Assembly (NCBI GenBank): GCA_028288725.1
Contig: JAQGIC010000019.1
Coordinates: 1 to 64,000, forward strand
Origin: Rhodospirillales bacterium
Lineage (GTDB): Bacteria > Pseudomonadota > Alphaproteobacteria > ATCC43930 > CGMCC-115725
DNA: 64,000 nt
Direction of reading: 5' to 3'
Both the position numbers and the translations under genes were made by a program. Every line of letters starts with the position of its first letter. Position 1 is the stretch's first letter. The notes beneath the pieces were generated by a model. It saw only the letters and a program-made list of their open reading frames with translations. It was not told where the DNA came from and searched no databases. Shown here piece by piece: positions 2,781 to 6,446 of this stretch.

Positions 2781-4091
2781 ATGCGCTTTCTGGGTGTCGG
2801 CGACTCCTGCGATCTTTTGGCACTCTATCGTGAGCTCGTCGCGGACGGCCACGAGGTCAAAGTCGGTATAGAAAATCCGCTGTGCTACAAGACCGGCCAG
2901 GGCATCATCACACGCGTGGAAGATTGGCGCGACGAGATCGACTGGGTTCGCGCCGCGGGTCGGGACGGCATCATCCTGTTCGAGAATGTCGCCGCCGGTC
3001 GGGGCCACGAGCAGGATATTCTGAGGAACGCCGGGCTTCATGTCATCGGAGGCAGTGCCTATGGCGATCGATTGGAAAACGACCGGGCTTATGCACAGTC
3101 CATCCTGGGCGAGCTTGGGCTGCAGATCTGCAGAATCCATGAGTTCGCCGACGGCTTGAACGCTCTCTGCTTCATAGACGAGCATCCGGGCCGCTATGTT
3201 CTCAAATTCAATGGCCAGGCTTTCGCCTCCTGCGATAATTACGTCGGTCGTTTGACAGATGGTTCAGACGTCCGTGCCGTTCTGGCGGCCAAGCTCGCAG
3301 CAGCCGGACAAGGCAAGGCCAGCTTTGTCCTCATGGAGCATGTGAGCGGCGTCGAGATGGGGGTGGGCGCCTATTTCAACGGACATGATTTTCTCGCACC
3401 CGCCTGCCTCGATTGGGAGCATAAGCGCTTCTTTCCGGGGGACATGGGCGAACTGACCGGCGAGATGGGCACGGTAGTGACATACGAGCGCACTGCTCCG
3501 TTCTTCGAACGAACTCTGGGCCGCATGGCCCCGTTACTGCGCAAAAACGGCTATTGCGGCTACATCAACCTGAACACGATCGTCAATGATCAGGGCATCT
3601 GGCCGCTCGAATTCACCTGTCGGTTCGGCTATCCGGGCTATGCCATTCTGGCCTCGCTGCAAGTGCAGGGCTGGGCGCCACTCTTCGCGTCGATCATCCG
3701 AAAGAGCGCGACCAGTTTCGAGACTTATCCAGGGTTTTCCCTAGGCATCGTCCTTACGACACCCCCGTTCCCCTACACGCGTGAACATGTCGAGGAGGCG
3801 GTAGGGCTGCCGGTACTCGTCGGAGCCGAGCTCAGCCCGGTCGAGAAGCTCCATCTTCATTATGGCGAGGTCGGACTGGAAGCCGACAACCTCATCACCA
3901 GCGGCATGTACGGCTGGACGATGGTCGTGACCGGGCGGGGGGACTCGATCGGCATCGCAAAAAAATCGGCCTACGCGCTTGCCGAGAAGCTCTACATCCC
4001 GAACATGCGCTATCGCGCCGATATCGGCGACCGGTTGATCGCAGGCGAATTCGCCTTCGTCGAGCAGCTGGGGCTACTCGGACCCACCTGA
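2781..4091 (+). CDS. PurD-like ATP-grasp ligase
   Basis: The 436-aa protein has the ATP-grasp layout of phosphoribosylamine-glycine ligase: an N-terminal Rossmann-like part (MRFLGVGDS), an ATP-binding lysine region (YVLKFNG, 139-145), EHVSGVEMGVGAYF (186-199) and a nucleotide-binding HKRFFPGDMG stretch near 214-223. The metal-ligand motif reads EFTCRFGYP (277-285), where purine PurD usually has EFNxRFGDPE, so a normally conserved Asn is Thr. It is therefore unlikely to be the housekeeping PurD. Such enzymes join a carboxylate to an amine via an acyl phosphate. It heads a co-directional cassette with two methyltransferases and a diiron enzyme. Substrate unknown. A weak ribosome binding site (GGATGAG) precedes the ATG. 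Confidence 0.85.
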   Translation: MRFLGVGDSCDLLALYRELVADGHEVKVGIENPLCYKTGQGIITRVEDWRDEIDWVRAAGRDGIILFENVAAGRGHEQDILRNAGLHVIGGSAYGDRLENDRAYAQSILGELGLQICRIHEFADGLNALCFIDEHPGRYVLKFNGQAFASCDNYVGRLTDGSDVRAVLAAKLAAAGQGKASFVLMEHVSGVEMGVGAYFNGHDFLAPACLDWEHKRFFPGDMGELTGEMGTVVTYERTAPFFERTLGRMAPLLRKNGYCGYINLNTIVNDQGIWPLEFTCRFGYPGYAILASLQVQGWAPLFASIIRKSATSFETYPGFSLGIVLTTPPFPYTREHVEEAVGLPVLVGAELSPVEKLHLHYGEVGLEADNLITSGMYGWTMVVTGRGDSIGIAKKSAYALAEKLYIPNMRYRADIGDRLIAGEFAFVEQLGLLGPT

Positions 4092-4147
4092 TCGCCCGAG
4101 AAAATCCGCCTGAGGGAACCACGATAAATGGAGCGGGTTGGGAGGTC

Positions 4148-5107
4148 ATGATCGCCCATGACTTCCCTCTCGGATCGAGTGCCAAAGCACTGATCAGGCT
4201 CGGTAGGATGCTGAGCGAAGCCGGATATCGGTTCATTACGGGTACGCCGGCGACGCATGCCCGCGTGAATGCGAGGCCAGGCAACCGGCGCGCGCGCTGC
4301 GTCGAAGACGTGTTCGGTTGGAGCCGGCCGTTCGGGAAAGACACGTTGCCGTCGGCGCTCGTCGATTTGATGTATAAAGCCGAAATCATCGAGGGGGATG
4401 GCGAGAACTACCGGAGTCTGGTTCGTCTTTCGAGCCTCGGTGATCTGCTGCTGTTCCATTCGGCATTTCCAACCGTGGATGCCGACGCTGTTTTCTTCGG
4501 ACCCGACACCTATCGGTTTGCGTCGGCCTTGCGCCAGCATCTGAGGGCGGCCGCCACGCCTCCTCGCGGTCGGGTCGTGGATATCGGCACGGGGACAGGT
4601 GCCGGTGCTCTCTTTATGGGGGCGAACTTCCCGGGCTGGACCGTCTTTGCCGGGGACATCAACGAGCGTGCTTTGAACCTGGCCCGCGTCAATCAGACCC
4701 TCAATCAGATCGGCAATGTTCGGGTGTGCCGCAGCAATCTCCTCGACGGTGTCGATGGGCCGGTCGACCTCATCGTCTCCAATCCTCCCTATATGTTGGA
4801 CCCGGCGGGCCGTTCCTATCGCAATGGCGGCGGTACGCTCGGCCAGGGGTTGTCGATCGCCGTCATTGATGCCGCGATCGACCGGTTGGCGCCCGGCGGC
4901 AGCCTGTTTCTTTACACCGGCTCCGCCATGGTCGATCGACAGGATGGCCTGCTCGCAGCCGCGGCACAGCGCCTGAAGCAGTCTGGTCTTCGCTGGACCT
5001 ATCGTGAACTCGACCCCGATGTCTTCGGTGAGGAACTTGAGAGCGATGCATACGCCGGGGTGGACCGCATTGCCGTCATCGCGCTCAGCGCGTTCAAACC
5101 AGGGTGA
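4148..5107 (+). CDS. HemK/PrmC-like class I SAM methyltransferase
   Basis: The 319-aa protein has an N-terminal helical region of about 130 residues and then a Rossmann-fold SAM domain with motif I VVDIGTGTGAG (143-153) and the catalytic NPPY tetrad (212-215). That tetrad is used by enzymes methylating planar nitrogens, such as glutamine side chains (HemK/PrmC) or adenine. The N-terminal domain does not look like a release-factor-binding domain, so the target is probably different. GGAGG stands a few bases before the ATG. The stop overlaps the next gene's GTG by four bases, implying translational coupling to the diiron enzyme. Confidence 0.85.
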   Translation: MIAHDFPLGSSAKALIRLGRMLSEAGYRFITGTPATHARVNARPGNRRARCVEDVFGWSRPFGKDTLPSALVDLMYKAEIIEGDGENYRSLVRLSSLGDLLLFHSAFPTVDADAVFFGPDTYRFASALRQHLRAAATPPRGRVVDIGTGTGAGALFMGANFPGWTVFAGDINERALNLARVNQTLNQIGNVRVCRSNLLDGVDGPVDLIVSNPPYMLDPAGRSYRNGGGTLGQGLSIAVIDAAIDRLAPGGSLFLYTGSAMVDRQDGLLAAAAQRLKQSGLRWTYRELDPDVFGEELESDAYAGVDRIAVIALSAFKPG

Positions 5108-6015
5108 CCCAGATGCTTCAACACGCGCCGTCCAATTCTTATGAGTGCCGTGTCGCCCCGGATCGCGCCATCACGGAACTTCACCTGCGCTTGGCCTCGC
5201 TCAATCAAAGGCGATTTGCGCCATCTCTGCCGATAGCGGACTGGGCATCGGATTTTGCCGATCGGGCGCGATTGATGCAGGTAGAGCATCGGTTCCTAGA
5301 GGAGGAGCGGCGCGCCGTTCTAGAGCGGGCGGCGGCGGTACCCCGCGAACCGGAGGCCTTCATCCAGTGGTTCGAAGCGTTGCGGGAGACGGGGCCCGGC
5401 CAGAGCGACCCGCTATTTCCGTGGCTCGCCGACAACGCGTCGCTCGATCAGATTCGCTGGTTTTTGGCCCAGGAAATCGGCGGCGAGGCCGGCTTCGATG
5501 ATCTGGTGGCACTCACCCAAATGCGAATGGCCATTGGCCCGAAACTTGAGCTGGCTCGCAACTATTGGGACGAAATGGGCCGCGGAAACGCCAAAGGGAT
5601 GCACGGACCGATGCTATCGAAACTCGCTGCGGCGCTCCAACTCGAGCCTCGACCTGAAGCAACCGTCTGGGAATCATTGGCGCTCGCGAATGTCATGGCC
5701 GGGCTGGCCGCCGACCGCCGGTACGCCTTCCACTCGATCGGTGCTTTGGGCGTGATCGAACTGACCGCGCCGGGGCGGTCCGCCCAGGTGGCGGCGGGTT
5801 TGAAACGCCTGGGTGTAGCTGCGCAGGATAGGCACTACTTCGACCTTCATGCGGTTCTCGACGTCAAACATTCGGCCGCCTGGAATCGGGAGGTGATCCG
5901 GCCGCTTGTCGCTGCCGAGCCGGCCGTGGCGAGCGCGATCGCAGAAGGCGCGCTCATGCGCCTTACGTGCGGTGCTCGGTGTTTCGAGCGGTACCGCAGT
6001 GAGTTCGAGCTTTAG
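5104..6015 (+). CDS. Haem-oxygenase-like diiron enzyme
   Basis: The 303-aa protein fits the iron-containing redox enzyme (HDO) superfamily, whose members such as SznF and CADD bind two irons and use O2 for N-oxygenation, desaturation or C-C cleavage. The full ligand set appears present: Glu124, Glu157 with His167 (E-x9-H), Glu219, and His249/Asp253/His256 (H-x3-D-x2-H). This spacing matches the family signature, which argues for an active metal site. Translation probably begins at the GTG overlapping the upstream stop; an ATG nine bases later is an alternative. The reaction cannot be told from sequence. The SET-domain gene follows after 14 bases. Confidence 0.85.
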   Translation: MTQMLQHAPSNSYECRVAPDRAITELHLRLASLNQRRFAPSLPIADWASDFADRARLMQVEHRFLEEERRAVLERAAAVPREPEAFIQWFEALRETGPGQSDPLFPWLADNASLDQIRWFLAQEIGGEAGFDDLVALTQMRMAIGPKLELARNYWDEMGRGNAKGMHGPMLSKLAAALQLEPRPEATVWESLALANVMAGLAADRRYAFHSIGALGVIELTAPGRSAQVAAGLKRLGVAAQDRHYFDLHAVLDVKHSAAWNREVIRPLVAAEPAVASAIAEGALMRLTCGARCFERYRSEFEL

Positions 6016-6029
6016 TCCGGAGGGACACG

Positions 6030-6446
6030 ATGGCACTTCTAACGGTCGAGGAGCCGCTGATCGGCGTGGGCCATTACCCGGGTCGCGGCCGGGGGGTACG
6101 GGCGTTACGCGAGATTCCACCGAAAAGCCGGATTGAGCGCTGTCCGGTTCTGATCATTCCGGAAAAAGATCGTCGACTGACCGATCCGTCGATCGTGTTC
6201 ACCTACGTTTTCATGTGGGAGCACGGAACCACGGAGCAGGATCTTTATCGGGGGGACGGTCGTGCGGCTATAGCACTCGGCCTTTCCAGTCTGCTGAATC
6301 ATTCCTATGAACCGAATGCCGATTTCGTCCGACACATCGACGCCCTCGAACTTGAATTGCGCAGCCTCCGCCGGATCGCGGCTGGTGAGGAGGTTACCAT
6401 CGATTACCAGATGGATCTCTGGTTTGATGCTGGCAGATCTTCATGA
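6030..6446 (+). CDS. SET-domain methyltransferase
   Basis: This compact 138-aa protein is essentially one SET domain, the fold of protein lysine methyltransferases. The N-terminal SAM-contacting motif is GRGRGVRAL (18-26), the pseudoknot motif is LNHSYEPNADF (89-99) and the C-terminal motif is GEEVTIDYQ (119-127) with the catalytic-type Tyr. No post-SET cysteines are present. A strong GGAGG precedes the ATG. As the last gene of the cassette it adds a second, unrelated methyltransferase class to the ligase, HemK-like enzyme and diiron oxidase. Its substrate could be a protein, a carrier or a peptide amine; I cannot say which. Confidence 0.85.
   Translation: MALLTVEEPLIGVGHYPGRGRGVRALREIPPKSRIERCPVLIIPEKDRRLTDPSIVFTYVFMWEHGTTEQDLYRGDGRAAIALGLSSLLNHSYEPNADFVRHIDALELELRSLRRIAAGEEVTIDYQMDLWFDAGRSS

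Follow-up and report, generated by a model that had tools for sequence, protein, structure and literature searches.

A rare gene set of PurD-derived ligase, N-methyltransferase and diiron oxidase as a candidate stress-induced pathway of arginine- or aspartate-type amides

The 64,000-nucleotide stretch analyzed here (the window; positions 1 to 64,000 of contig JAQGIC010000019.1, assembly GCA_028288725.1, from a Rhodospirillales bacterium) encodes a cassette of an ATP-grasp ligase derived from PurD, an AerE/HemK-like S-adenosylmethionine (SAM)-dependent N-methyltransferase, and a haem-oxygenase-like diiron oxidase (HDO), followed by a small SET-domain methyltransferase (Table 1). The first three genes group together in genomes of several phyla, and the pair of methyltransferase and HDO is also found with other ligases. 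The cassette is tentatively read, with somewhat less than even confidence, as a stress-induced pathway in which the ligase forms an amide of the arginine or aspartate type that is N-methylated and oxidized, probably giving a stress-protective small molecule. An earlier note on this DNA had recognized the four genes but had overlooked the stress promoter as well as the context of arginine and of the arginine polymer cyanophycin.

A scan for the ligase covering 84,980 species genomes returned 57 loci, among them seven mutually closely related ones of the Methylocystis type. Both the methyltransferase and the HDO were encoded near the ligase in 32 of the 57, with gene order and orientation shuffled. 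Within the Alphaproteobacteria, such three-gene loci were present in Methylocystis, Bradyrhizobium, Rhodopseudomonas, Sphingomonadales, and Rhodospirillales; beyond this class, they were present in Methylotenera, Burkholderiales, Myxococcota/Deltaproteobacteria, and Planctomycetes. Among cultured strains, Rhodopseudomonas rhenobacensis DSM 12706 and Bradyrhizobium sp. MOS003 contain the set. Because the two genes accompany the ligase in so many independently found loci, irrespective of order and orientation, the grouping is far beyond chance, and the neighborhood is conserved, in contrast to the independent scattering that would have spoken against the cassette idea of the earlier note. The divergence of the three proteins was correlated pairwise (Mantel r 0.62-0.75; 0 of 2000 permutations as high) when one Methylocystis-type locus was kept, a correlation to which common descent of the species contributes. 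Of 385 genomes in even samples of Alphaproteobacteria, 3 encoded the ligase and 5 a close HDO; the module is therefore rare, the cassette occurring in about 1% of the genomes sampled from this class. Histidine kinases, ABC transporters, and MaoC genes were recurrent neighbors as well, but only clade-local or generic ones, and were set aside.

The ligase is the exchangeable part of the module. On plasmid records, methyltransferase and HDO were encoded in the absence of the PurD-like ligase. Komagataeibacter and Variovorax have, as the third gene, one for a stand-alone ATP-grasp protein resembling the ATP-grasp domain of cyanophycin synthetase (CphA; 5e-12 in a three-sequence comparison, with weak but consistent NCBIfam matches). 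In Sphingobium yanoikuyae, the pair is part of a gene run encoding cyanophycin synthetase, isoaspartyl peptidase, cyanophycinase, methyltransferase, HDO, and a dicarboxylate symporter, of which the cyanophycin synthetase and the cyanophycinase exceeded their curated cut-offs. Among 348 genomes of Sphingomonadaceae (57 with the methyltransferase, 35 with cyanophycin synthetase), the methyltransferase was present in 32 of the 35 encoding cyanophycin synthetase versus 25 of the 313 without it (Fisher 3e-26, a value overstating independence as the sphingomonad genomes are related). In the methyltransferase tree, cyanophycin-linked genes did not form a single lineage, one of them grouping with ligase-linked genes. 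The methyltransferase-HDO pair is, thus, a portable unit, the partner ligase of which is PurD-like, a CphA-like ATP-grasp protein, or true cyanophycin synthetase. The model of ligation, oxidation, and methylation put forward in the earlier note was supported as a gene set, with the difference that the pair goes with various ligases, cyanophycin synthetase included.

Within stretches of at most 14 kb, 40 sphingomonad loci encoded cyanophycin synthetase (20), cyanophycinase (19), HDO (17), and isoaspartyl peptidase (11). In sphingomonads (loci L138-L177, L076, and L094), the methyltransferase was nearly obligate with cyanophycin synthetase, and the HDO was often in the same cluster, possibly representing a missing part of cyanophycin metabolism. 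The pair is, thus, common to the cassette and to the sphingomonad cyanophycin clusters (CphA, cyanophycinase, isoaspartyl peptidase), but in the window genome, where no match to cyanophycin synthetase exceeded the cut-off, the PurD-like ligase stands in place of that enzyme. Cyanophycin synthetase exceeded the cut-off in a single one of 34 genome entries, which stand for 31 distinct genomes and were almost all picked for the PurD-like ligase; in this entry, the ligase had neither methyltransferase nor HDO alongside. On a plasmid of Legionella sainthelensi (L078, 5070-6899), a single gene directly before the HDO gene encodes a cassette-type methyltransferase fused to a dimethylargininase-like hydrolase domain, and a myxococcal locus that has the PurD-like ligase encodes another dimethylargininase-like hydrolase between methyltransferase and HDO. 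As the pair is partnered by cyanophycin synthetase and cyanophycinase, by CphA-like ATP-grasp proteins, and by dimethylargininase-like hydrolases, the neighbors point, through guilt by association, to arginine or aspartyl-arginine chemistry.

A more specific form of the pathway would make it a stress-induced tailoring branch of arginine/cyanophycin chemistry, in which the pair N-methylates and oxidizes arginyl-aspartate-type amides supplied either by cyanophycin synthetase (the polymer version of sphingomonads) or by the PurD-derived ligase (a small-molecule version, as in the window); this is possible but doubtful. The adjoining cyanophycin synthetase, cyanophycinase, isoaspartyl peptidase, and dicarboxylate symporter, together with the dimethylargininase/arginine dihydrolase-like domains, would also suit plain turnover, that is, conversion of arginine or beta-Asp-Arg by methyltransferase and HDO for nitrogen supply or signaling, the PurD-like ligase making a storage dipeptide and the end product not being protective. 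Such a role is rather unlikely, as the O2-dependent HDOs described so far mostly yield specialized products (PMC13108848), and as the loci with SET and ligase genes lack cyanophycinase.

The methyltransferase is of the class I SAM type (Pfam MTS is PF05175), and the NPPY motif attributed to it was indeed present as N212-P213-P214-Y215. By sequence, the best PDB matches were 7RC2-7RC6, titled aeronamide N-methyltransferase AerE, aligning over residues 43-256; the AlphaFold2 (AF2) model (pLDDT 90) matched AerE over residues 8-319 (Z about 25). The two-domain fold of AerE and PoyE (proteusin side-chain amide N-methyltransferases), with SAM motif and NPP motif, was, thus, recovered, and AerE was the top match in both sequence (about 20% identity) and structure, with both domains included. 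HemK/N6AMT1 enzymes matched the model with Z 18-21, and the curated PrmC/HemK cut-offs were not reached (71.7 versus 199.1 bits and 64.8 versus 115.5 bits). Methylation of nitrogen is well supported by these matches, but not the exact nitrogen, because AerE, a gentamicin N-methyltransferase, and HemK/N6AMT1 all match.

Enzymes of the HemK and SET types act on proteins, as is textbook knowledge, and AerE methylates side-chain amides of asparagine within a ribosomal peptide (PMC11285071). The methyltransferase, the SET protein, and the HDO might likewise modify a protein or ribosomal peptide, to which the ligase would add an amino-acid tag. However, no precursor peptide was found near the module. 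The earlier note had suggested looking for a shared short peptide or carrier gene nearby; among the open reading frames (ORFs) of 20-100 aa encoded within 3 kb, a comparison across loci revealed no peptide or carrier gene conserved between distant loci, all matches being antisense-like or forming clusters of sister or identical loci, with limited power for peptides that are very short or divergent. Neither was a gene for a leader protease, exporter, radical enzyme, or epimerase recurrent among the neighbors of the module. Peptide or protein modification is, therefore, considered improbable.

Haem_oxygenas_2 is the sole Pfam domain in the 303 residues of the HDO. Residues E124, E157, H167, E219, H249, D253, and H256, each conserved to at least 95% among 48 homologues, align with identical residues of HrmI, the closest relative with a solved structure, so that the complete ligand set claimed for this enzyme was borne out. 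The haem-oxygenase-like fold family and the conserved His/carboxylate ligands, which characterize the HDO superfamily, are both present. Despite the identical ligand residues, the hormaomycin pathway in which HrmI acts is unlike the cassette, and we know of no ligase-methyltransferase cassette in the context of the lysine N-oxygenases HrmI and BelK. Compared by scheme only, the cassette resembles streptozotocin synthesis by SznE and SznF, where arginine is methylated and then N-oxygenated by an HDO (for the SznF step, see PMC13108848); in contrast to SznF, the cassette HDO lacks a cupin domain.

The motif GGAAC-N17-GTT, 33 bp before the start of the methyltransferase gene, corresponds to the promoter consensus of the general-stress sigma factor EcfG, given as GGAAC-N17-20-GTT (PMC6599016) or GGAAC-N16-CGTT (PMC7083833). 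In 117 upstream regions of alphaproteobacterial homologues, the motif was enriched with a spacing of 17 (17 observed versus 1.1 expected) and of 18 (8 versus 0.3), whereas other spacings were near background. It was enriched at the sphingomonad loci, too (11 versus 2), and the window genome encodes NepR, the EcfG anti-sigma factor. The cassette is, thus, predicted from the promoter motif to be under general stress response control; its genes are not named in the main text of the two EcfG regulon papers just cited. Genes for KatE, Ku/LigD, DUF892, and Hsp20 were recurrent near the module. In Acinetobacter, desiccation tolerance involves the HDO DtpC, which is encoded beside katE and acts in parallel with KatE (PMC13232832). 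KatE was encoded near the cassette module in several loci, but that paper mentions no ligase or methyltransferase, and the likeness to the cassette HDO is a parallel by context.

The same stress genes, solitary HDO genes in stress-gene surroundings, and the abundance of EcfG-like motifs in the window as a whole (13 versus 3.8) would also be expected if the cassette genes had separate stress roles and were neighbors merely because EcfG-regulated genes cluster. This is quite unlikely, given that ligase, methyltransferase, and HDO are adjacent in Methylotenera, Myxococcota, and Planctomycetes, that is, outside the alphaproteobacterial EcfG system, and that the link between methyltransferase and cyanophycin synthetase is near-obligate.

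The ligase has the fold of PurD but is not PurD. It matched GARS_A (PF01071), with GARS_C sub-threshold, and scored 95 bits against TIGR00877, below the curated PurD equivalog cut-off of 288 bits; the other TIGR00877 match of the genome, to which it is 22% identical, scored 521 bits and is, thus, the true PurD. The earlier note had left room for a ligase grouping with housekeeping PurD, which it did not. The AF2 model (pLDDT 91) comprised the whole glycinamide ribonucleotide (GAR)-synthetase fold (over about 400 residues), but the PurD hallmarks GSGxREHA, GGMGA, and EFN-RFGDPE read GVGDSCDL, GEMGT, and EFT-RFGYPG, so that the substrate loops and one metal-site residue (Asn of EFN, replaced by Thr) are changed. 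The structure models were made from alignments of window and locus sequences only. GEMGT and the EFT-RFGYPG segment were conserved within the ligase family, and the replacements (N-terminal GSGxREHA, GGMGA, RFGDPE, and Asn of EFN) held family-wide. That the first gene encodes a housekeeping-type PurD paralogue producing GAR can, despite the shared fold, be dismissed in view of the separate true PurD, the low identity, and the family-wide loss of the hallmarks.

Two further groups of ligase homologues were observed. At loci of Methylobacteriaceae and Roseomonas (L019, L020, L006, and L029), a PurD-like ligase adjoins a class I/II aminotransferase without the methyltransferase-HDO pair; L019 and L020 also encode another SAM methyltransferase, and L006 encodes a type III polyketide synthase. 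A haloarchaeal (Halarchaeum) plasmid carries a 33% identical homologue (L007, 7001-8275) with the other partners absent.

In the favored pathway, the general stress response of Alphaproteobacteria would, on the promoter evidence, switch the cassette on. The ligase, judged by its fold, would activate a carboxylate with ATP and join it to an amine, giving an amide from amino acids. The methyltransferase, according to its family and the NPPY motif, would transfer the methyl group of SAM to a nitrogen, most likely that of a planar amide or guanidine; the HDO, with its intact ligands and its closeness to the lysine N-oxygenase HrmI, may use O2 to oxidize N or C of the same compound. The order of these steps is presumed. 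Judged by the partners encoded in other taxa, the substrate is most likely an amino acid or amide of the arginine or aspartyl-arginine type, and the end product would probably be a stress-protective small molecule. Several observations weigh against this pathway. In a group of Methylobacteriaceae, the ligase is accompanied by neither methyltransferase nor HDO, and in some genomes the HDO stands alone. The arginine link stems from the neighbors in other taxa, no arginine gene being among the window's own neighbors. No EcfG motif precedes the ligase gene itself. Finally, the model of the methyltransferase fits the gentamicin N-methyltransferase, which acts on an amine (Z 24), nearly as well as AerE.

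Each of the enzyme families has been described before, as have small pathways built around an HDO. The open-access literature searched (on HDOs together with ATP-grasp enzymes, on cassettes with a PurD-like member, and on methyltransferase or redox partners of cyanophycin) contained nothing on this gene set, in agreement with the earlier note, which knew of no described pathway of this composition. If the pathway exists as proposed, a rare cassette found across several phyla yields an undescribed stress metabolite, and sphingomonad cyanophycin has two partner enzymes not found mentioned in the literature searched. An uncharacterized branch of the HDO superfamily would, moreover, be given a concrete substrate hypothesis tied to the general stress response, in parallel with the desiccation-tolerance HDO of Acinetobacter.

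The four ORFs run in one direction, as previously described, separated by 56, -4, and 14 bases, the overlap of -4 assuming a GTG start of the HDO gene at 5104.

Table 1. Features of the cassette, with positions in the window.
Feature	Position	Strand	Basis
PurD-derived ATP-grasp ligase, 436 aa	2781..4091	+	GARS_A 2e-11; GAR-synthetase fold Z 36; hallmark residues changed
Predicted EcfG-type general-stress promoter motif GGAAC-N17-GTT	4115..4139	+	sequence; spacing-specific enrichment upstream of homologues; NepR in genome
AerE/HemK-like SAM-dependent N-methyltransferase, 319 aa, NPPY	4148..5107	+	MTS 4e-15; AerE best PDB match by sequence and fold
Haem-oxygenase-like diiron oxidase (HDO), 303 aa	5104..6015	+	PF14518 2e-41; HrmI 1e-30; ligand positions all intact
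Small SET-domain methyltransferase, 138 aa, accessory	6030..6446	+	PF00856 9e-16; near ligase in 22/58 loci; sole SET gene found in genome

From the four-gene cassette of the earlier note, the core of three genes stood, whereas the SET gene is an accessory member, present in a subset of loci. Its motifs NHSxxPN and GEExxxDY are intact, reading LLNHSYEPNADF and GEEVTIDY, respectively. The distance limit underlying the count in Table 1 was 5 kb from the ligase; among loci with complete flanks, the proportion was 15 of 34. The ligase-near SET genes fell into three related subgroups, and SET genes were otherwise scarce, with one copy in the window genome and presence in 1 of 14 control genomes. 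At loci of Bradyrhizobium and Rhodopseudomonas, where the SET gene is placed separately, the EcfG motif preceded both this gene and that of the methyltransferase, an argument for co-regulation of SET. It would, thus, be an optional partner of the pathway, and its target may be a lysine in a protein of the pathway or in the product. At four loci (L014, L023, L030, and L031), two different small SET-domain genes lie side by side or flank the ligase gene.

Upstream of the cassette, the window encodes a small, charged protein of 67 aa without Pfam match (302-505), a formate/nitrite-type transporter (942-1829), and a DUF892 (ferritin-like stress) protein (2013-2552), the gene of which is closely preceded by an EcfG-like GGAAC-N17-ATT near 1949. 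Elsewhere, in Methylocystis and a planctomycete (L034-L037, L064, and L051), the module adjoins a gene for an ATP-dependent DNA ligase and neighboring genes resembling a DNA-damage cluster, and Ku/LigD are encoded nearby in several other loci.

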